A stretch of 64,000 nt of DNA from Ignavibacteriales bacterium. Lineage in GTDB: Bacteria; Bacteroidota; Ignavibacteria; Ignavibacteriales; Ignavibacteriaceae. The translations under genes and the position numbers were made by a program. Below, piece after piece: positions 1-13,629 of this stretch. The stretch covers positions 1,095,448 through 1,159,447 of the forward strand of contig CP054182.1 of the NCBI GenBank assembly GCA_015709675.1, read 5' to 3'. How positions within the stretch are numbered: the stretch's first letter is position 1; the number at the start of each line of letters is the position of its first letter. The notes under the pieces are model-generated. The model did not search any database, had not been told where the DNA came from, and saw only the letters and a list, made by a program, of their open reading frames with translations.

Positions 1-774
1 TTGTCTTGTATAATACGCATCAATTTTTCCTTCTCCTCTGAATTCACTGAATCGTATTCCCGCCTTCCAGTTTTTACCCTTTTTTATAAGAGCGGCATCA
101 TACTGTTCTGAAGAGAGAGCAAGAACTCCCCTGTAGTCATCATCTTCCGCTGTTTTTTCGGGATATCCTCTGCGGTATATACCCTCAAGAGAGAAGTTCC
201 CCGGTAAGAGAAGAGTACCTCCGGCATGAGAGCCGCTTTCGGCAAAAACATACGGTACCGAAATAAACTGCTCCGCAGCAACTGCTTCTATAAGAGCAGG
301 ATCATTGCGGGTAAATATATGCATCCAGAGAGGGGGAGACGGCATATCCCTTTCAGCACGGAGTGACGCGGTAAAAGAATAAGAATAATAATAGGAGTTC
401 TTCTGTTCATGTACCGAAAAAGAGGGCTGCATCAAAAATCCCCCGAGAGAAAATGCCGCATCAGCGGTAACGCTCCGGCGGTCAGTTACTGCTTTTGCCG
501 AAGAGATATCTCCTTCTTTATCAATTGAGGTGATTAATCCACTGCGCGAAACTGATATTCTGCTGCTAAAGCGTTCATGCAGAGGAACTGCAAACCGGAG
601 AGCAAAGGAGTGAACAGATGAAGAGAACCGGCTCAGCGGTGAAGTTTCCCGGTAAAGATCGGCAAACTCAGCCTCAGCTGTTATAATTGCCGAGGTGTCA
701 GGTATATAAAAAACCGGCTGTGCGGTTAACAACCGCACAGCCAGCAAGAGGGAGAGAAAGAGATAAAACCGCAA
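1..774 (-). CDS. Outer-membrane beta-barrel protein, copy A (C-terminus beyond window edge)
   Basis: The minus strand is open from a TTG at 774 to the window edge: 258 codons with no stop. Hand translation gives a signal peptide (Arg-Phe-Tyr start, hydrophobic core, then LTAQPVFYIPDT) followed by residues that align end to end with the protein at 3181-4536; shared blocks include PPLWM, FTRN, PALIEAVA, ESGS, YPEKTAEDDD and FRGEGKIDAYY. The partner copy ends in an aromatic residue, as outer-membrane beta-barrels do, so this is inferred to be a barrel too. The TTG lies 4 bases after the stop of the lipoprotein gene at 779-2668, so the two are probably translationally coupled. The function is not known to me. 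Confidence 0.75.
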   Translation of the reverse strand, partial: MRFYLFLSLLLAVRLLTAQPVFYIPDTSAIITAEAEFADLYRETSPLSRFSSSVHSFALRFAVPLHERFSSRISVSRSGLITSIDKEGDISSAKAVTDRRSVTADAAFSLGGFLMQPSFSVHEQKNSYYYSYSFTASLRAERDMPSPPLWMHIFTRNDPALIEAVAAEQFISVPYVFAESGSHAGGTLLLPGNFSLEGIYRRGYPEKTAEDDDYRGVLALSSEQYDAALIKKGKNWKAGIRFSEFRGEGKIDAYYTRQ

Positions 775-778
775 CCGG

Positions 779-2668
779 TTACGGAGTTATGGTTACCTGA
801 TTGCTGAAATACTCATAGGCAGCGACCAGGGCCGGATGACCGTGATACTCATTATTAATCCGGTTGGATATCTTGTAGGTATAACTTACTCCGGCGTTTA
901 CATTCCAGTCCTGGTACTGCATGCCGAAATAACCTGAAGAGTTCAGTTCAAAATTACCGCTCCCGGTTTTTTTGTATATATTGAACTCACCCCACGGCAC
1001 AGACGGTTTACCCTGCCAGTTCAGAATGATGTTATTCTGTCCGGCAGCGAATCCTTCCAGGTTTTGCGGATATACAGGGAGACGGATTTCAACCCAGTCG
1101 CGCTCCTGCGATTTAATATAAAACCGGTCATTAGGATTAACCATTGCCAGTTCAAACTCTTCACCGCTTATCAGAAGAGCGTAGTGGACGATTTCAACCG
1201 GAGTATCGGTCGCATCACGCACAGAGAGTTCAAATACGCCGTATGGTTCAAGGTCAATTATATAATCACGGCTGCCAGTGCTTAGCTTAAGCTGCACATC
1301 ATTAAACCAGCCGCCGGAAAAATTTACAAACCCTTCAAGCCTGTAAGCATATTCTTTGTCTATATTCAGAAGCCGTTTCAGAACGTTATTCGTCATGCCG
1401 GGGAACAGACCGCCGAATGTTGGATCGGGGAAAACAAATTCATCGTAGGTTGTTGCATTAAATCTGAAATCGATATCATCAGTTCCCCGCGGTTCAACCG
1501 TATAAGCAGGTATAAAGGCTGATTTCGGATTCTGAACAGGATTATCAAAGAAATTACCCAGATTGATCTGGATATCATAATTGTTGCCTTCACTGTCAGC
1601 ATCTTTAAGATGAACCGTTACCGTCTGCGTTATGGCATCCTTAAACTTGTTGAGATACTTCTTGGTGGTGTCAAGATCATTCTGTTTGATACCGTTATTG
1701 CCAATTTTGATAACAGCGTCAGCTTTGCTGCCCGAGAGGGTTTCCAGGGAAGTAATTCCGCTGAGCAGTTTGGTTGCGACAAGATTAAGATCATTCTTAG
1801 CCATGGTTGCACGGGATGCGCCATCGGCGGCAAGATAGAAGAAGTTCGTGCTGTTCTGGTTAAGCGCTGCAAGGAGTGTTGACTGATTATAATTTGGAAT
1901 GTCAAATTTATACACCAGGAACGCATCCACATTAAACTTCAGAATGTGCATCATGGCATCCATGATGTAGATTTCAGCAGGGTAAAGGGCCACAGCTTCC
2001 ATCTCCGGATCACCCTGCATCTTTCCGCTTATAACAAACTTAAAAGAAGGATTGGCTTCAAGCTTAGCGAAAAGGTTAGCTGCGTATTCAAGACGGGGGA
2101 GCAGTTTATCCCTGAGCACCTGCTGAATACGGCTGATGAGCGGAGGGTCTTTAACAGCAAGCTTCATCATGGTAAAAACAGCTGATCCTGCATCATCAAC
2201 GGGGATTTTCATTCCTGCAGTACCTCCGGGCAGAAGGTTTGGGGAGAGGAGTTTTTTAAACGGATTTTCCTGATTGAATGCAGAGTCTATATCTTTAATC
2301 AGAGCATTAAAATCGGGGTCCTTATACACCATCATGAATTCAGTGAACGCGGCCCCGAATTGTGCCTGGGCGTTTGTTTCATCAAGGGTGAGGGCCTCCT
2401 TAAACAGCGAATTAGCAGCAGACATATTGACCTGGTCAAGGTCAGCGAGAGTGTTGTAATTGTTTTTGATCAAATTGAACATCTCGGTTTCAAGGAGTGA
2501 AACCGCTTGGTCAGATTTGTTCTTTGAAAAAACCGAGTCTTCATTAACAATGGGGTCCGGTTCTTTATATGAGATGGGGTCTTTTTCGGAGCAAGATAAA
2601 AGTAGGAACGAGAACAAAACCAGTAAACTGTACTTCTGAAGCAACTCTTGGTTTATGCGCGTCTTCAT
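779..2668 (-). CDS. Large lipoprotein with helical N-terminal region and FN3-like C-terminus, copy A
   Basis: A 629-residue protein. The N-terminus (MKTRINQELLQKYSLL...LLLSCSEKD) is a lipoprotein signal with lipobox LLSC. Residues about 50-120 look like a helical, TPR-like segment (repeated Leu/Ala pattern, SLFKEALTLDETNAQAQFG), followed by a long helical middle part. The last 90 residues (ILNWQGKP, FNIYKKTG, VSYTYKISN) look like a fibronectin type III fold. The ATG at 2668 is preceded by an AGAAAGGCGG ribosome site, also present at the paralogue. It is paralogous to 4541-6406, and the middle third is nearly identical in DNA. It is followed after 4 bases by a beta-barrel gene, so the pair probably acts at the outer membrane. 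I do not recognise a named family. Confidence 0.85.
   Translation of the reverse strand: MKTRINQELLQKYSLLVLFSFLLLSCSEKDPISYKEPDPIVNEDSVFSKNKSDQAVSLLETEMFNLIKNNYNTLADLDQVNMSAANSLFKEALTLDETNAQAQFGAAFTEFMMVYKDPDFNALIKDIDSAFNQENPFKKLLSPNLLPGGTAGMKIPVDDAGSAVFTMMKLAVKDPPLISRIQQVLRDKLLPRLEYAANLFAKLEANPSFKFVISGKMQGDPEMEAVALYPAEIYIMDAMMHILKFNVDAFLVYKFDIPNYNQSTLLAALNQNSTNFFYLAADGASRATMAKNDLNLVATKLLSGITSLETLSGSKADAVIKIGNNGIKQNDLDTTKKYLNKFKDAITQTVTVHLKDADSEGNNYDIQINLGNFFDNPVQNPKSAFIPAYTVEPRGTDDIDFRFNATTYDEFVFPDPTFGGLFPGMTNNVLKRLLNIDKEYAYRLEGFVNFSGGWFNDVQLKLSTGSRDYIIDLEPYGVFELSVRDATDTPVEIVHYALLISGEEFELAMVNPNDRFYIKSQERDWVEIRLPVYPQNLEGFAAGQNNIILNWQGKPSVPWGEFNIYKKTGSGNFELNSSGYFGMQYQDWNVNAGVSYTYKISNRINNEYHGHPALVAAYEYFSNQVTITP
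1481..1876. repeat. Duplicated core, copy A (identical to 5243-5638)
   Basis: Read base by base, 396 bp here are identical to 5243-5638, at a constant offset of 3762 bp. Similarity stays very high, with scattered substitutions, to about 2218. On the other side of 1481 it drops at once to ordinary paralogue divergence. The sharp edge inside a coding region suggests recent gene conversion between the two lipoprotein genes and not only an old duplication. Confidence 0.9.
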
Positions 2669-3180
2669 GTATCCGCCTTTCTGATAAAAATATTTCTACA
2701 ATAGCAATATAAGGCAAAAGTAGAATAGTTGTTTAATAAAAATATTACTTTTAGTAGATCACATACGATATCTTTTAAGAGAGAAGTGTAAAGGGGTACA
2801 ATGTAGGATAAATAAAATTAGTGTCAAGTAGCTGCTAATTATTTTTATTATATAGAAGGATGGCATCGATTTTCCCTATTACAGAAAGCAGTCTCTTCAA
2901 AATGGAAAAAGATACTAGTTAATCAGTAAAGGAATCGTGAAGTGTGCAGCATTTTATACCGAGTAAAATCCATAAAAATTTCACCGTGTGTTGCGCATCA
3001 TTCTACAACTATTCAGGTCATTTTTCGATAATCAAGGAATTTCAAGGTGGTGCCTTCGTACCATAAAAAAAGTCAAATTACTCGGAGTAAAACCAAGAAC
3101 ATGGAATAAATTAAAAGTGTCTGAGAAAGAATAAGCTTTAAATTAAACTAGAAAAATTCAATAGAATTGAAAACTCTCGA
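2669..3180. other. AT-rich spacer between the two lipoprotein/barrel cassettes
   Basis: 512 bp with no open frame that I can support. The part next to 2668 resembles the part next to 6406 (similar ribosome site and flanking bases), so it probably holds the promoter of cassette A. The rest is AT-rich, and I see no hairpin terminator, tRNA or repeat family in it. Confidence 0.6.
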
Positions 3181-4536
3181 TTAAAAATAATAGCCGGCTG
3201 TAAAACTAAACCATCTGCCGCCGTCTGATTTTACGCTGACTCCGGCACCGCCTGAGGGGACTCCTGTTTCTTCCTGCGGGCGTTTTGTTATATATACGGG
3301 GATAAACTGTCCGAAACCGGCGGAGAGTTTCCACGATCCGGTATTCCAGTAAAAATCAGAAGACAGAAGAAGAGCACCTGCTCTGCTGATCCGGAGAACG
3401 TTTTTACGGTAATCCTTAACACCAAAAATAAGAAAGGCGGGCTGCCAGGTTTCTGTTGTCAGTGAAGGTCTGATATCATAGTAGCTGAGCTTCGGTACAA
3501 AGCGAAGATCATCAGTGGTGATTTCGCTGCTCATTCTGATGGTAAGAAGTTCGGCTCCTCCCTGAAGTATGGCATTTACTCTGTTGCCGAATACAGAAAT
3601 TAAAAAACCGGAGAAAGGCCAGGTTTGTATATTACCTGAAGCCCTGCCTCTTGCAGAGTAGTGCGAAAGTTCTGCATTGAGCAGATAATTTCGCCCGGCC
3701 CGGAACGAAGAGAAAGCGGACCAGCTCTTATAACGGAGTGTCGAGATGCTTATACTGCTGAAACTCAGATTAGTATAATATGCATCAATTTTACCCTCAC
3801 CGCGGAACTCATGATATCGTACACCGGCTTTCAGGTTTTTTGATCTGCGGACAAGAGCCCCCTCAAATTCCTCCGAGGAAATTGCCAGAATACCATTAAA
3901 ATCATCATCCTCCGCCGTTTTTTCCGGATAAACTTTTCGGTATATACCCTCCAGAGAAAAACCGCCGGCAAGCTGAATAGTTCCTCCGGCCGCTGATCCG
4001 CTCTCCGCAAAAATATAAGGTACTGATATATTCTGATCAACAGCAACTGCTTCGATGAGTGCAGGTTCATTCCGGGTGAATAGCTGCATCCAGAGCGGCG
4101 GCGGATTATCCCTTTCCGGACGGAGAGCAGCATTAAGGGAATAGGAATAACTGTACCTGTTTTTCAGTTCATGAACGGTAAATGACGGCTGAATGAGAAA
4201 GCCGCCAGCTGAAAAAGAAATTTCACCGGTTATCTTCTGGCTTGCTGTTGATGCTTTGAAGAAGGACACATCACCCTCCCGTGAATAGGAAGTCAGAAAG
4301 CCATAGCGGGCAACAGTAATCCTTCCGGCAAAGCGTGATGAAAACGGCGATGAGTAGCTGAGAGAGAAATCCTGAAGCGATGCACTGAAACTGCTGACAA
4401 CTGAACTTTCGCGGTAAAGATCGGTGAAGCCGGCAGAAGAAGAAACAACCTGAGCTGTGTCAGGTATATAAAAAACCGGCTGTGCGGTAAGAAACCGCAC
4501 AGCCAGTAATAGAGAGAGAAAGAAACAAAAACGCAA
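3181..4536 (-). CDS. Outer-membrane beta-barrel protein, copy B
   Basis: 451 residues starting at TTG (MRFCFFLSLLLAVRFLTAQP), a clear signal peptide. The rest is made of alternating short polar/hydrophobic strands rich in Ser, Tyr, Phe and Gly, ending in FSFTAGYYF. A terminal aromatic residue after alternating hydrophobics is the usual beta-signal of outer-membrane barrels. It starts 4 bases downstream of the lipoprotein stop at 4541, without an obvious ribosome site of its own, which supports translational coupling and an unusual TTG start. It is paralogous to the truncated gene at 1-774. I do not recognise a named family; a PorV-like, transporter or adhesin role would be speculation. Confidence 0.8.
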   Translation of the reverse strand: MRFCFFLSLLLAVRFLTAQPVFYIPDTAQVVSSSAGFTDLYRESSVVSSFSASLQDFSLSYSSPFSSRFAGRITVARYGFLTSYSREGDVSFFKASTASQKITGEISFSAGGFLIQPSFTVHELKNRYSYSYSLNAALRPERDNPPPLWMQLFTRNEPALIEAVAVDQNISVPYIFAESGSAAGGTIQLAGGFSLEGIYRKVYPEKTAEDDDFNGILAISSEEFEGALVRRSKNLKAGVRYHEFRGEGKIDAYYTNLSFSSISISTLRYKSWSAFSSFRAGRNYLLNAELSHYSARGRASGNIQTWPFSGFLISVFGNRVNAILQGGAELLTIRMSSEITTDDLRFVPKLSYYDIRPSLTTETWQPAFLIFGVKDYRKNVLRISRAGALLLSSDFYWNTGSWKLSAGFGQFIPVYITKRPQEETGVPSGGAGVSVKSDGGRWFSFTAGYYF

Positions 4537-4540
4537 CAGG

Positions 4541-6406
4541 TTAAGGTGTAATCGTTACCTGATTGCTGAAGTATTCAAAAGCGGCAACCAGAGCCGGATA
4601 ACCGAAATACTCATTGTTAATCCTGTTGGAAACTTTATAGGTATAGCTTACGCCAGCGGTTACATTCCAGTCCTGGTACTGATTTCCGAAGAATCCGGAT
4701 GAATTCAGTTCAAAGTTTCCGCTTCCTGTTTTCTTATATATATTAAAATCACCCCAGGGGAGCGATGGCTTGCTCTGCCAGTTCAGAATGATGTTGTTCT
4801 GACCTGATGCAAATCCATCCAGACTGTGAGGAATTACGGGCAGCCGGATTTCCAGCCAGTCATGCCGTTGCGATTCAATGAAGAAGCGGTCATTCGGATT
4901 TACCATGGCCATTTCAAACTCTTCACCATTGATCAGGAGAGCATAACCGGTTATCTCGACCGGGGTGTTTGTTGCATCCCTTACGAAAAGTTCAAAATCG
5001 CGGTAAGGTTTAAGGTCACAAACATACTGCCTGGTGGCTGTGATAACTTTTAGCTGAACATCAGTGAACCATCCTCCTGAGGAATTAACATAACCTTCGA
5101 GGCGGTATGCAAATTCGTCGTCTATATATAAGAGCCGTTTAAGGAGCTCATTGGTCATGTCGGGAAACAGCCCCCCGAATTTGGGATCAGGGAAGGTGAA
5201 TTCTGCGTAGGTTGTTGCATCAAAGCGGAAATCTATGTCGTCAGTTCCCCGCGGTTCAACCGTATAAGCAGGTATAAAGGCTGATTTCGGATTCTGAACA
5301 GGATTATCAAAGAAATTACCCAGATTGATCTGGATATCATAATTGTTGCCTTCACTGTCAGCATCTTTAAGATGAACCGTTACCGTCTGCGTTATGGCAT
5401 CCTTAAACTTGTTGAGATACTTCTTGGTGGTGTCAAGATCATTCTGTTTGATACCGTTATTGCCAATTTTGATAACAGCGTCAGCTTTGCTGCCCGAGAG
5501 GGTTTCCAGGGAAGTAATTCCGCTGAGCAGTTTGGTTGCGACAAGATTAAGATCATTCTTAGCCATGGTTGCACGGGATGCGCCATCGGCGGCAAGATAG
5601 AAGAAGTTCGTGCTGTTCTGGTTAAGCGCTGCAAGGAGCGTTGACTGGTTATAATTTGGAATGTCAAATTTATATACCAGGAACGCATCCACATTGAACT
5701 TCAGAATATGCATCATGGCATCCATGATGTAGATTTCAGCAGGGTAAAGGGCCACAGCTTCCATCTCCGGATCACCCTGCATCTTTCCGCTTATAACAAA
5801 CTTAAAAGAGGGATTGGCTTCAAGTTTAGCGAAAAGGTTAGCTGCGTATTCAAGACGGGGGAGCAGTTTATCCCTGAGTACCTGCTGAATACGGCTGATG
5901 AGCGGAGGGTCTTTAACAGCAAGCTTCATCATGGTAAAAATAGCTGAACCCGCATCATCAACGGGGATTTTCATTCCTGCAGTTCCGCCCGGAAGGAGAG
6001 TCGGGGAGAGGAGCTTTTTGAGCGGATTTTCCTGATTGAATGCAGAGTCTATATCTTTGAGAAGGGCATTAAAATCGGGATCCTTATACACCATTACAAA
6101 TTCAGTGAATGCGGCCCCAAATTGTGCCTGGGCGTTTGTTTCATCAAGGGTGAGGGCCTCCTTAAACAGCGAATTAGCAGCGCTCATATTGATCTGATCA
6201 AGATCAGCGAGGCTGTTATAGTTATTGTTTATCATATTGAACATTTCGGTTTCAAGGAGGGCGGTTGCCTGGTCGGATTTTGTTTTGGATTCGGCCGGGT
6301 CAGGCGTACCTATAGGGTCTTCTTCGGAGCAGGAAACAAGTGTGAGCGTGAGCAGAACAAGTAAGCTGTACCGCAGAAGCCACTTTAAGTTAGCTAGTGT
6401 CTTCAT
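4541..6406 (-). CDS. Large lipoprotein with helical N-terminal region and FN3-like C-terminus, copy B
   Basis: 621 residues from the ATG at 6406. A longer frame opens further upstream, but this ATG has an AGAAAGGTGG ribosome site a few bases before it and begins a proper lipoprotein signal (MKTLANLKWLLRYSLL, lipobox LVSC). Layout matches copy A: short acidic linker, TPR-like helices at about 45-115, a long conserved helical core, then a C-terminal FN3-like domain (ILNWQSKP, FNIYKKTG, VSYTYKVSN) that diverges more from copy A than the core does. Pattern of divergence: core nearly identical, N-terminal linker and C-terminal half distinct. It is followed by its own barrel gene 4 bases downstream. 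The function is unknown. Confidence 0.85.
   Translation of the reverse strand: MKTLANLKWLLRYSLLVLLTLTLVSCSEEDPIGTPDPAESKTKSDQATALLETEMFNMINNNYNSLADLDQINMSAANSLFKEALTLDETNAQAQFGAAFTEFVMVYKDPDFNALLKDIDSAFNQENPLKKLLSPTLLPGGTAGMKIPVDDAGSAIFTMMKLAVKDPPLISRIQQVLRDKLLPRLEYAANLFAKLEANPSFKFVISGKMQGDPEMEAVALYPAEIYIMDAMMHILKFNVDAFLVYKFDIPNYNQSTLLAALNQNSTNFFYLAADGASRATMAKNDLNLVATKLLSGITSLETLSGSKADAVIKIGNNGIKQNDLDTTKKYLNKFKDAITQTVTVHLKDADSEGNNYDIQINLGNFFDNPVQNPKSAFIPAYTVEPRGTDDIDFRFDATTYAEFTFPDPKFGGLFPDMTNELLKRLLYIDDEFAYRLEGYVNSSGGWFTDVQLKVITATRQYVCDLKPYRDFELFVRDATNTPVEITGYALLINGEEFEMAMVNPNDRFFIESQRHDWLEIRLPVIPHSLDGFASGQNNIILNWQSKPSLPWGDFNIYKKTGSGNFELNSSGFFGNQYQDWNVTAGVSYTYKVSNRINNEYFGYPALVAAFEYFSNQVTITP
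5243..5638. repeat. Duplicated core, copy B (identical to 1481-1876)
   Basis: Partner of the segment at 1481-1876, with 396 identical bases. High similarity continues to about 5980, next to the codons for the GGTAGMKIP block. Beyond both ends the two genes show normal paralogue divergence. Confidence 0.9.
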
Positions 6407-6590
6407 GGTTTCCACCTTTCTGTGAGAATTTTTCGACACAGTAAATATAAAGAAAGAATTGCGGAAATTACCGTGAAAATATATATTCAGCCGTAATGAG
6501 TGTGATATTTGTCAAATAAACAGGGTGAAGCATAAAGCAGGCAGGGGGGTATCGAAGGAAAAAGGCGAGGTTAACAGCCAGAGTGTGTTT

Positions 6591-6618: not shown

Positions 6619-6715
6619 GTGTTAGGTTTCAAATTTTAGTTATTTATACAAATTTGCCGTTCAGTGAAGCGATGAATATACTGATTTGTTTTAACCGATC
6701 TGATTTTTATAGTTC

Positions 6716-7056
6716 ACCCGCTCTTTGGATTAATGAGCTTTTGCGAAGGTTTGTTATTAATATGCCACCCGCTACGCGGGTTCATGAAGGTTCGTAAAGG
6801 CTCAGTATTTATTAATATGCCACCCGCTACGCGGGTTTATAAAGGTTCGTACAGACTCAGTATTTATTAACATGTCACCCGCTACGCGGGTTAAAGAGTT
6901 GCAGCGAAGGTTCGGTTGTTATTAATATGCCACCCGCTATGCGGGTTTAGGAGTTGCAGCGAAGGGCCGGTTGTTAATAATATGCTGCCCGCGGCACTGG
7001 TTCATGAAGGGCAGCAAAGGCGAAGTATTTATTAACATGTCACCCGCTACAGGGGT
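6716..7056. repeat. Tandem array with 55-bp period, six hairpin-bearing units plus one degenerate
   Basis: A 15-base hairpin core (ACCCGC, TAC, GCGGGT) recurs starting at 6767, 6822, 6877, 6932, 6987 and 7042, exactly 55 bp apart each time. The rest of each unit (ATGAAGGTTCG-like, then TATTTATTAATATG) is conserved too. Units 5 and 6 are degraded in the core (TGCCCGCGGCACTGG and ACCCGCTACAGGGGT). A seventh, degenerate 51-bp unit begins near 6716. No open frame uses the array consistently. It lies between the divergent copy B cassette and the 3' end of the YCF48-type gene. Confidence 0.9.
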
Positions 7057-7126
7057 TCATTAATTACTCTGCTATGGGACCACTCAGTCGGTGGATTTAT
7101 GCAATAAAAGAAACCATGACAAAGTT

Positions 7127-7180
7127 CCGGAAGGAGAGTTCCCGCGAATGAGGTGATTAGCAGGGGAGTTCTCCTTCCGG
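7127..7180 (-). terminator. Long inverted repeat downstream of the YCF48-type gene
   Basis: The arms CCGGAAGGAGAGTTCCC and GGGAGTTCTCCTTCCGG pair over 17 positions with two mismatches, around a 20-nt loop. The element sits 15 bp past the stop of the gene ending at 7195. There is no strong T-run on either side, so a terminator role is likely by position only. Confidence 0.5.
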
Positions 7181-7194
7181 ACTGACTATAATGG

Positions 7195-8427
7195 TTACTT
7201 AAGAAGAATCATTTTCTTAACCTGCGAAAATGTACCAGCCTGCAGACGGTATATATACGTACCGCTGCTGAGAGTCTCCGCATCAATCGGCAGGGAGTGT
7301 TTTCCGGCTTCTCTGGTCTCATTGAGCAAAGTAGCCAGTTTATTGCCCATTACATCATACAGCTCAAGCCGCACCAAAGAACTCACGGGCAGTGTGAACT
7401 CTACCGTAGTTGAAGGATTAAATGGGTTTGGATAATTCTGTGCCAAAGTAAATTCTGACGGAATGCCTTCACCCTGTTCAAAAGCTGAAGTTGTTCCTCC
7501 GGTCTTAAATATTGCTCCGCTGTCCCCCACGGCAAATCCGGTTGTCTGATTTACAAAATGGAGGTGATAGAGCCGCATAAAGCCGGGGACGTTCTCCGTA
7601 GTCCACGTTGTTCCTCCGTTTGTGGTTTTTATTATTCTTCCGTTATCACCGGAAGCCCAGCCGTTGTTTTCATCTGTAAAGAAAACAGAGAGGAGATAAT
7701 CCGATACTCCTGGAGACTGCTGAACCCAGGAGTTTCCGCCATCAGTAGTTTTTGCGATCACAGCCGGAAGACCGCCGACTACCCATCCGGTTGTTTCGCT
7801 GATAAAGTGAATGTTTCGCAACTCTGAATATGTTGGAATTGAAGTTGTATCCCAGTTTGCTCCGCCGTCAGTTGTACGGGTAATTTTTCCTCTGATGCCG
7901 GCAGCCCAGCCTTTGTTTTCATTCACAAAGAAGATGCTTGAAAGAGCTTCGTTGGCTTTAATAGGAAGTGAGGTCCAGTTCGTTCCACCATTTGTTGTTT
8001 TTAAGATCGCACCGCCGGTAAATCCATTCCCCGCTACCGCGTAACCTGTATTCTCATTGAAGAATTTGATTCTGAAGACATGGCTGGTGGTTCCGGATGT
8101 CTGGTTTGTCCAGGTAGCTCCTCCATCGGTGGTTTTTCTTATTGAGCCGGATAATCCGGCAATCCAGCCGGTTGAATTGTTCAGAAAATAGCAGCCAAAA
8201 AGATAACCGCCGGGTGCGGGAGTAATTTTTGTCCACACAGCTCCTCCGTTGGTTGTGCGGATAACCTCCCCGTTATTGTAAGGTACCCAGCCATTATTTT
8301 CATCGGTGAAATAAACATGCCAGGCTTTGGAATCCACACCGCTTGACTGGGGTGTCCAGCCCGATTGGGCAAATGTTGTCAGGGAAAAAACAGAATAGAA
8401 CAGGACAATAGAACAGAAAGGTTTCAT
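7195..8427 (-). CDS. Secreted YCF48-repeat protein with T9SS C-terminal sorting domain
   Basis: 410 residues. A signal peptide (MKPFCSIVLFYSVFSLTTFAQ) is followed by six beta-propeller-type repeats, each ending in TT(N/D)GGxxW, as in YCF48/BNR-like proteins. After about residue 320 comes the type IX secretion sorting domain: LAQNYPNPFNPSTTVEFTLP, then LYDVMGNKLATLL and GTYIYRLQAG. The protein is therefore expected to cross the outer membrane by T9SS and be released or anchored on the surface. YCF48 in plants and cyanobacteria is a photosystem II assembly factor; the bacterial secreted versions share only the fold, so no substrate is inferred. The ATG has an AGGAGC ribosome site 6 bases upstream. 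The gene stands alone. Confidence 0.9.
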   Translation of the reverse strand: MKPFCSIVLFYSVFSLTTFAQSGWTPQSSGVDSKAWHVYFTDENNGWVPYNNGEVIRTTNGGAVWTKITPAPGGYLFGCYFLNNSTGWIAGLSGSIRKTTDGGATWTNQTSGTTSHVFRIKFFNENTGYAVAGNGFTGGAILKTTNGGTNWTSLPIKANEALSSIFFVNENKGWAAGIRGKITRTTDGGANWDTTSIPTYSELRNIHFISETTGWVVGGLPAVIAKTTDGGNSWVQQSPGVSDYLLSVFFTDENNGWASGDNGRIIKTTNGGTTWTTENVPGFMRLYHLHFVNQTTGFAVGDSGAIFKTGGTTSAFEQGEGIPSEFTLAQNYPNPFNPSTTVEFTLPVSSLVRLELYDVMGNKLATLLNETREAGKHSLPIDAETLSSGTYIYRLQAGTFSQVKKMILLK

Positions 8428-9114: not shown

Positions 9115-11559
9115 TTATGCTATTGCATTGTCATCATCTTCAGGAACGATCTTTGAGACGTCCGCTATTGCATCTCCGTCTTTAAGGCGGATAAGGCGGT
9201 TGCCCTGTGTGTTGCGTCCCATTACTCTGAGCTCTTTTACGCTCTGGCGTATAACCATACCGCCGGTTGAGATGATCATCAGTTCTTCGTTATCGGAAAC
9301 TTCCATCATGGTGATCATTTTGCCGGTCTTTTCGGTTATCTTAACCGTGGTTACGCCTTTGCCGCCGCGTTTGGTAAGGCGGTAATCGGCTATATCGGAA
9401 CGTTTTCCGAATCCGGTTTCAGTCACCACAAGCACTGAGCCCTGGCGCTTGATTGCAAGTACACCTACAACTTCATCCTTTTTACCAAGTGTAATGCCGC
9501 GCACGCCGGTAGCAGTTCTGCCCATATCGCGAACGTCATCCTCATGGAAGCGGATGGCCATACCTTCGCGTGTGCCGAGAACGATATCGCTCTTTCCGTC
9601 AGTGAGTTTTACGCCGATGAGACTGTCACCGTTATTAATACTGATAGCATTAATACCGCTCTTGCGGACGTTGCTGTATGCTGAAAGCACGGTTTTCTTA
9701 ACGGTGCCCTGTTTTGTTGCCATCAGGAGATACTGGTCATCCTTGAACTCTTTCACGGCTACAAAAGCGGCTATCTGTTCATCTTTTTCCTTTTCAATCA
9801 GGTTGATGATCGATTTACCGCGGGATGCACGTCCTCCTTCCGGTACTTCGTGCACCTTAAGCCAGTAACACTTTCCTTTATCGGTGAAGAAGAGTATATA
9901 CTGGTGCGTGCTGGCGACAAACATGTGTTCAATAAAGTCATCATCCTTGGTGCCTGCTCCGGAAACTCCCTTGCCTCCGCGCGCCTGTTTGCGGTAACCG
10001 CTCACGGGGAATCTCTTAATAAATCCTTTGTGAGAGATAGTGACCACCACGTCTTCTTCGGCGATTACATCTTCAAGCGAGAATTCGGTATAGTCATAGA
10101 TAATCTCGGTTCTTCTTTCATCGCCGTACTGCTCTTTAAGCGCAAGCAGTTCTTCTTTGATGATAAGATTCCTTTTCTCTTCGCTGTCCAGAATGCCTCT
10201 CAGTTTTTCGATGAGTTTAATTACTTCGCGGTATTCATCTTCAATTTTCTTTCTTTCAAGGCCGGTGAGCCGCTGCAGACGCATATCCAGGATGGCTTTT
10301 GCCTGAATTTCGGACAGCTTGAACTTCCGCATGAGGTTGTTCTTAGCGGAGTCAACATCGCGGCTTTTCTTGATCGTCTCGATAACTTCATCAATGTTAT
10401 CAAGCGCGATGATATATCCTTCTAAGATATGTGCTCTGCGCTCGGCGGCATCAAGGTCAAACTTTGTACGGCGGATGAGAATATCCATCCGGTGGGTAAG
10501 GAAGTGCTGCATGATTTCCTTAAGTGTCAGCACTTTAGGCACGCCATTAACCAGCGCAAGCATAATCACGCCAAAGGTTGTCTGCATCTGTGTGTGCTTA
10601 AAGAGCTGATTAAGAACCACAGCCGGCTGAGCATCGCGCTTCAGTTCAATAACCACGCGCATACCATCCCGGTCAGACTCATCTCTGAGCGCTGATATAT
10701 CTTCAATTTTGCCTTCTTTAACCAGTTCCGCAATTTTTTCCTGCAGAGCGGCTTTATTCACCTGATACGGAAGCTCTGTAACGATGATGCTTTCTCTGCC
10801 GTTTTTAGCGGTTTCGATATTCGCTTTAGCGCGGACGATAATCTTGCCGCGTCCTGTCAGGAACGCATCCCTTACGCCCTGGTAACCGAAGATTATACCT
10901 CCGGTGGGGAAGTCAGGCGCGGTGATATGTTTCATCAGCTTTTCGCCGGTAATCTCAGGATTCTTGATCAGCGCAATAAGACCGTCAACCACCTCACTCA
11001 GATTATGCGGAGGAATATTGGTAGCCATTCCGACCGCGATACCGCTTGAACCGTTAACAAGAAGGTTCGGCAAATATGACGGAAGAACGGTTGGTTCCTG
11101 CAGAGTGTCGTCAAAGTTGGGGGCAAAGTTTACGGTGTTCTTTTCCAGATCGCGGAGCATTTCACCTGCAATTTTAGCAAGCCGTGCTTCGGTATATCTC
11201 ATTGCTGCAGCGGAGTCGCCGTCAACAGAGCCAAAGTTGCCCTGACCGTCAACCAGCGGGTAGCGGAGTGAGAAATCCTGCACCATGCGGACCATGGTTT
11301 CATACACAGCCGAGTCGCCGTGCGGATGATATTTACCAAGGACTTCACCCACGATTCTCGCGGATTTTTTATACGGGCGGTTATGAGCCATACCCAGTTC
11401 GTGCATTCCGAAGAGAACGCGGCGGTGAACCGGTTTCAGGCCGTCGCGCACATCGGGCAGCGCGCGGGAGACGATTACGGACATCGAATAGTCTATATAC
11501 GATGATTTCAGCTCATCTTCGAGCGTGACCGGATTTATTTTATCAAATATGTTTGCCAT
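9115..11559 (-). CDS. gyrA: DNA gyrase subunit A
   Basis: 814 residues, the usual GyrA length for this group. It forms A2B2 with GyrB and introduces negative supercoils. The breakage-reunion domain spans about 30-500, with the catalytic tyrosine in AAMRYTEAR at residue 122, the same number as in E. coli. The quinolone pocket [12 protein letters not shown] keeps Ser83 and has Glu at 87, where E. coli has Asp. The C-terminal six-bladed wrapping domain contains the GyrA-box QARGGKG, which separates it from ParC. It starts 30 bp after the gyrB stop and ends just before a strong terminator. Confidence 0.97.
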
Positions 11560-11589
11560 TTATATATCTAAAGTTAAATTTCCTGTTAA

Positions 11590-13629
<2,040 letters not shown>

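Follow-up and report, generated by a model that had tools for sequence, protein, structure and literature searches.

The locus studied here raises the question whether a lipoprotein and an outer-membrane beta-barrel, which are encoded side by side and in two copies, act together as a two-protein system and, if so, of which kind. The stretch of DNA analysed (the window) covers 64 kb of a genome that consists of a single contig of 4.21 Mb, and both gene pairs lie at its 1–6406 end. The original prediction did not recognise the pair as a described system. This still holds, since neither protein has a named family above the Pfam/NCBIfam cut-offs, where solely weak TPR matches were obtained, and no publication describing such a lipoprotein/barrel pair was found in literature searches. 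The features of the locus are as follows.

4541–6406, minus strand: lipoprotein 1, 621 aa, with an SPII signal, the lipobox LVSC, SEEDP after Cys26, a TPR-like N-terminus, a core reaching to about residue 430 and a beta/FN3 C-terminus
5241–5931, minus strand: gene-conversion tract within lipoprotein 1, sharing 98.8% identity with copy 2
3181–4536, minus strand: outer-membrane barrel 1, 451 aa, TTG start 4 nt past the stop of lipoprotein 1
4475–4507, minus strand: terminator-like hairpin 1, 14-bp stem, 5-nt loop and T-tract, in the signal-peptide codons of barrel 1
2669–3180, minus strand: non-coding spacer of 512 nt separating the two bicistrons
779–2668, minus strand: lipoprotein 2, 629 aa
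1–774, minus strand: barrel 2, first 258 residues, TTG start at 774, 4 nt past the stop of lipoprotein 2
714–744, minus strand: terminator-like hairpin 2, 14-bp stem and T-tract, in the signal-peptide codons of barrel 2
L003:14864–16222: complete barrel 2, 452 aa, extending beyond the window into the genome

Read on the minus strand from 6406 downwards, the order is lipoprotein 1, barrel 1, spacer, lipoprotein 2 and barrel 2. Lipoprotein 1 starts with ATG at 6406, preceded by an RBS-like AGAAAGGTGG; an alternative GTG start at 6439, which would lengthen the ORF, is less likely. In both copies the gap between lipoprotein and barrel is exactly 4 nt. The ORF coordinates thus agree with the two coupled pairs, 4-nt gaps and TTG barrel starts that had been predicted. 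Extending the sequence to the left of position 1, which had been proposed as a check, completed barrel 2 and set the cassette count to two; a whole-genome search revealed exactly two pairs and no third copy of either the lipoprotein or the barrel. Within the spacer, a promoter-like match at 2827–2800 is not clearly above the regional chance level.

Several other elements are present in the surroundings. Upstream of lipoprotein 1, between this gene and a YCF48-like gene, tandem units of ~55 bp with a palindromic CACCCGCTACGCGGGTT core occupy 6714–7063; the array gives five matches and is unique to this site within the window. The YCF48-like gene (7195–8427), whose product combines YCF48/BNR repeats with a C-terminal sorting domain for type IX secretion, is closely followed by an inverted repeat of 18 nt whose arms are 20 nt apart (7126–7181), probably its terminator. 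Furthermore, gyrA is found directly downstream of the adjacent gyrB (9115–13614), and a TonB-dependent receptor with CarboxypepD_reg domains is encoded near the pair in this genome, which contains no SusD_RagB.

At the protein level the lipoproteins of the window are 87% and the barrels 65% identical. On the level of bases, barrel 1 shares 82.7% with its counterpart in the sister species versus 63.5% with barrel 2, which suggests that the duplication is probably older than the split of the two species. The sister species harbors one pair, which resembles copy 1 and has next to it the gene found past copy 2 here, and this arrangement suggests that copy 2 has been lost there. Two contigs of the sister species (L007 and L035) break within the barrel with an exact overlap of 127 nt, which may represent a branch in the assembly graph, for example an unassembled second copy.

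The lipoprotein copies are not uniformly similar. Over 691 bases of the core (5931–5241) they are 98.8% identical, including an identical run of 398 bases at 5638–5241, and 4 of 105 fourfold sites differ within this tract compared with 54 of 80 just downstream. This is recent gene conversion, by which the lipoprotein core is kept uniform between the copies, in contrast to the FN3 ends and the barrels, which remain distinct.

The predicted TPR-like helices and FN3-like end of the lipoprotein were both recovered. In PDB profile searches, designed TPRs were matched at positions 67–96 of the lipoprotein profile and FN3 domains at 528–612 (best E 1e-7), and Pfam yielded weak TPR_11/TPR_19 matches in members of the family (best E 5e-4). 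The motif FPDPTFGGLFPGMTN marks the end of the core, to which the long form adds the beta/FN3 part. Short forms of 360–456 residues without the FN3 end occur as well (f10, f20, part of f5 and f19, and the more distant f32), which suggests that the minimal unit is the core. In G056 the lipoprotein is extended at its C-terminus by ~150 residues (L038:8765–9260) that are absent from the other aligned members.

Acidic residues near the lipidated cysteine, the hallmark of export signals that mark surface lipoproteins in Bacteroidetes (PMC5080379), are present overall. Aspartate or glutamate accounts for ~35% of positions +2 to +6 after the cysteine, compared with 11% over the mature proteins and 19% in a control set of 17 lipoprotein-like ORFs, where the 35% is approximate because the automatic lipobox search took the wrong cysteine in G132 and G097 (SSGC and IAGC by inspection). 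Examples are SEEDP and SEKDP in the window copies and SDDDD in G434. Due to this resemblance the lipoprotein is probably located at the cell surface, with the reservation that the signal was defined in Bacteroidetes and may not hold for this class. The acidic stretch is missing from the short form f10 and some relatives, and therefore surface exposure may not be general.

For the second protein, an outer-membrane barrel had been predicted, and its sequence is indeed of this type. The alternate-residue amphipathicity amounts to 1.55, compared with 1.02 ± 0.08 in shuffled sequences, with z = +6.9 at beta periodicity and nothing at helical periodicity, a trend opposite to that of the lipoprotein. 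A signal peptide is present, the barrel sequence starts directly after it, and the C-terminus is mostly aromatic or hydrophobic. Both the pairing and the barrel-type sequence in the window are hereby confirmed, far beyond chance. The best-conserved segments are all non-amphipathic, namely GxxESWPFTS...NR, TWQPxFLVFGVK and a Pro-rich stretch ending in DGGRW, and they are spaced by even numbers of strands ahead of the last one. From this parity, counted back from the C-terminus, they should be extracellular loops. Counted by eye, the barrel would have about 16 strands (range ~14–18); a number of 29 from amphipathicity peaks was judged to be an over-count.

Are the two proteins inherited together? 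For the searches a core profile of the lipoprotein was used, since the residual class-level matches of the full profile were FN3-only hits in other proteins, and weak TPR-only matches (E ~1e-4) were left out of the lipoprotein counts. At the family level a profile search found both genes in 12 of 80 genomes, neither in 68 and one alone in none. At the class level the core was present in 23 of 391 genomes and the barrel in 21; the two genomes lacking a barrel match stop at a contig edge (G368) or are N-masked (G253). At the phylum level both genes occurred in an identical set of 15 of 396 genomes. Homologs occurring without each other, which the original prediction had named as evidence against a fixed pair, were thus found at none of the three levels. 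All searches combined, the core is present in 34 genomes, the barrel in 32 and the barrel alone in none.

In all 30 genomes that carry both genes on a single contig, the two are adjacent and the lipoprotein comes first, and this order is kept even in lineages that are linked only by profile, so strongly have the proteins diverged. In G032 the two genes are on contigs with an exact 127-nt overlap and in G250 on two separate contigs. The gap is mostly between −4 and +13 nt, with extremes of −53 and +152 nt. In the closest relatives the barrel starts 1 nt past the stop (TTG or ATG) or with a 4-nt overlap (GTG); a nearly abutting start is the rule, and several relatives have longer gaps of up to 152 nt. 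The trees of both proteins are concordant at most well-supported clades, and the lipoprotein and barrel distances correlate with r = 0.84. The pair is therefore obligate and co-inherited in deeply divergent lineages. Conserved neighbor genes were not observed across the genomes, which suggests that the pair is a self-contained unit, and for the same reason the surroundings give no clue to a substrate. A scan of genome contigs gave one near relative, the nearest named being the MAG Ignavibacteriaceae bacterium SJ115; viral collections contained none.

An extra feature of the pair is the hairpin at the junction. In the window, hairpin 1 contains 9 G-C pairs in its stem and was located by the scan at +34 to +66 past the lipoprotein stop, and in both copies 6–7 T are present within the 8 nt right after the stem, so that a G+C-rich stem is directly followed by a T-tract as in intrinsic terminators. 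A junction hairpin with a score of at least 19, in a scoring scheme devised for this analysis, was found at the same place in 21 of 31 pairs, compared with 3 of 103 neighbors on the same strand and, at the ends of convergent genes, 6 of 37. Likewise, 15 of 28 barrel starts carry the hairpin versus 1 of 105 other signal-peptide-like starts; the Fisher and p-values for this enrichment ignore phylogeny.

When 12 junctions were aligned, compensatory changes were seen at 9 of the 11 base pairs of the stem. Pairing is retained in 86% of the stem cells versus 33–52% with a slid partner, and none of 500 shuffles reached the observed covariation score; the arms overlap signal-peptide codons, and these also restrict the sequence. 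Folded one by one, the junctions lie 3 to 6 sd below shuffled sequences. The hairpin is hence conserved via compensatory changes. In G056, G439, G496 and probably G434 the barrel starts further off and the hairpin lies within the intergenic gap, which indicates that the constant element is a hairpin shortly past the lipoprotein gene, irrespective of whether the barrel starts before or after it. A T-rich tail (at least 5 T in 8) follows about 12 of the 21 strong hairpins; these look like true intrinsic terminators, and some of the others may not terminate. The sole Rfam match nearby, RsaOG, was rejected at 27 bits against a threshold of 50.

Among described systems, SusC/SusD (RagA/RagB) is comparable in that an outer-membrane barrel and a TPR-containing surface lipoprotein are encoded there by adjacent genes (PMC9599597) and the lipoproteins are of similar size. 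In contrast to SusC, the barrel described here comprises ~450 instead of ~1000 residues, has no plug and no CarboxypepD_reg domain, and the gene order is reversed. Pfam scans revealed no SusD family in the lipoproteins, SusD_RagB (PF07980) is absent from the whole genome, and hhalign of two lipoprotein subsets against 30 SusD proteins aligned the signal peptide alone. Plug, TonB_dep_Rec and CarboxypepD_reg gave no Pfam match in the barrels, although the same scan recognises the neighboring TonB receptor (L003:11362–13722). SusCD membership was rejected for both proteins, and with it the known TonB receptor/SusD pair that the original prediction had named as a possible counter-explanation.

The explanation that fits best as a whole, to which we assign a probability of roughly 0.45, is an obligate two-protein outer-membrane module, in which the lipoprotein would serve as a lid or scaffold on the barrel and the junction would be attenuated. 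That both proteins form a complex is very likely, judged from linkage, co-inheritance and topology. Slightly better than even are the chances that the lipoprotein is surface-located via its acidic LES-like signal and docked on the conserved extracellular loops of the barrel; AlphaFold models from shallow alignments (2–3 sequences) reached pLDDT values of 35.4 and 33.5 and did not support the docking. By analogy to SusD/SusC, the plug-less barrel could tentatively be seen as a TonB-independent channel or translocation pore with the helical lipoprotein as its lid or scaffold. For the junction hairpin, a role as an attenuator giving lipoprotein in excess of barrel is about an even bet.

Mechanistically, the acidic signal behind the cysteine would send the lipoprotein to the cell surface, where its TPR scaffold would dock on the extracellular loops of the ~16-stranded barrel and cover the TonB-independent pore as lid or scaffold. 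At the transcript, ribosomes finishing the lipoprotein would restart at the TTG, ATG or GTG 1–4 nt away and thereby hold the hairpin open, whereas transcription would stop at the hairpin if this restart fails. That a ribosome is able to block terminator formation in coupled genes has been described (PMC12548453). Since part of the transcripts would end after the lipoprotein gene, the lipoprotein is expected in excess over the barrel.

Other readings place the same two proteins differently. The lipoprotein could be oriented towards the periplasm, with TPR-like helices that feed a polymer, e.g., an exopolysaccharide, into the barrel for export, as in AlgK/AlgE, where a TPR lipoprotein that binds the polymer is combined with a barrel porin (PMC9734138). 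On paper this is the closest architecture, with a barrel of ~450–490 residues and a TPR outer-membrane lipoprotein as its partner; a sub-threshold NCBIfam match to PgaA in one member (E 0.067) would fit, and so would a periplasmic location for those relatives without acidic residues after the cysteine. Such an exporter is nevertheless unlikely, because AlgE and AlgK structures were unmatched in PDB profile searches, 1–2 TPR motifs are recognisable here versus 9.5 in AlgK, the signal probably directs to the surface, and no polysaccharide synthase or modification genes are recognised beside the pair, whose neighbors vary. In the window flanks, Pfam identifies gyrase, T9SS cargo, an epimerase and the TonB receptor, and no exopolysaccharide synthase cluster.

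Alternatively, the barrel may be the private translocator of its own lipoprotein, which would then be a cargo and not a permanent partner, similar to the Slam/T11SS systems. The fixed 1:1 pairing and the acidic surface signals are in line with this, as is the position of the genes, since cargo lipoproteins are often encoded beside the Slam barrel (PMC8406197). The sequences themselves speak against it and make it rather improbable: Pfam detects neither DUF560 (SlipAM) with an N-terminal TPR nor another barrel family, the TPR sits in the lipoprotein instead of the barrel protein, cargoes of known structure possess a C-terminal eight-stranded barrel whereas the core is helical here, and the short forms have no C-terminal beta domain at all.

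A third possibility is an accessory of the type of BamG/BamH, in which the barrel would hold the surface lipoprotein over BamA to aid the assembly of special clients. BamG, a 14-strand barrel of Bacteroidota, grips the surface lipoprotein BamH by its extracellular loops, much as docking is envisaged here, and paralogous BamG2/BamH2 are encoded in a putative operon (PMC12578637, PMC12611786). Yet BamG belongs to the FadL family, and the barrels described here match no FadL-type family (FadL/Toluene_X; Pfam E up to 0.1–0.5, PDB E up to 10) and no barrel structure of the PDB at all; BamH has been described with a carbohydrate-binding beta-fold and not with TPR helices; and BamG/BamH are universal in the phylum, where the present pair is patchy (15/396 genomes). 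We regard this reading as improbable.

In one distant genus, genes for an ABC ATPase and two MacB/FtsX permeases precede the pair on the same strand (L142:5373–11196, also L144 and L145), and a functional link to the pair is possible there. A general role as the outer-membrane end of a MacB/LolCDE-type export of lipids, lipoproteins or peptides would draw on the position of the pair directly downstream of the ATPase and the two MacB_PCD/FtsX permeases in G443, G435 and G439. This has little in its favor beyond that genus: all three genomes belong to it, in G431, a member of the same family, the pair has no such genes next to it, and no neighbor family is kept across the other genomes.

Finally, that the genes are ordinary operon neighbors with separate functions and the hairpin a by-product of signal-peptide codons, which do partly dictate its arms (the codons for LAV pair with those for AQP in the window copies), is very improbable, since neither gene occurs alone in the 34 genomes, other signal-peptide-like starts carry such a hairpin in 1 of 105 cases, three relatives and probably a fourth have it in the gap outside any signal peptide, and the compensatory changes are far above controls.

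Returning to the two-protein outer-membrane module, the constant pairing, the lack of a named family and the conserved junction hairpin together make it look like an undescribed two-part cell-surface device. Since the sequence criteria of the known systems tested here failed, the pair appears, on sequence grounds, to be a new family within the known kind of lipoprotein-barrel systems, with an unusual junction. Going further, one may speculate that a whole undescribed class of lipoprotein-barrel devices exists in several classes of the phylum, with a protein ratio set by translation-coupled antitermination at a buried terminator, which is a doubtful but conceivable extension.

An obligate pair that has escaped annotation, and whose small barrel has no plug, points to one more class of lipoprotein-barrel system. 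The hairpin within the signal-peptide codons of the barrel offers a testable case of how unequal amounts of two partners may arise from one transcript. Furthermore, the lipoprotein and barrel sequences supply the profiles with which this system can be found and named.
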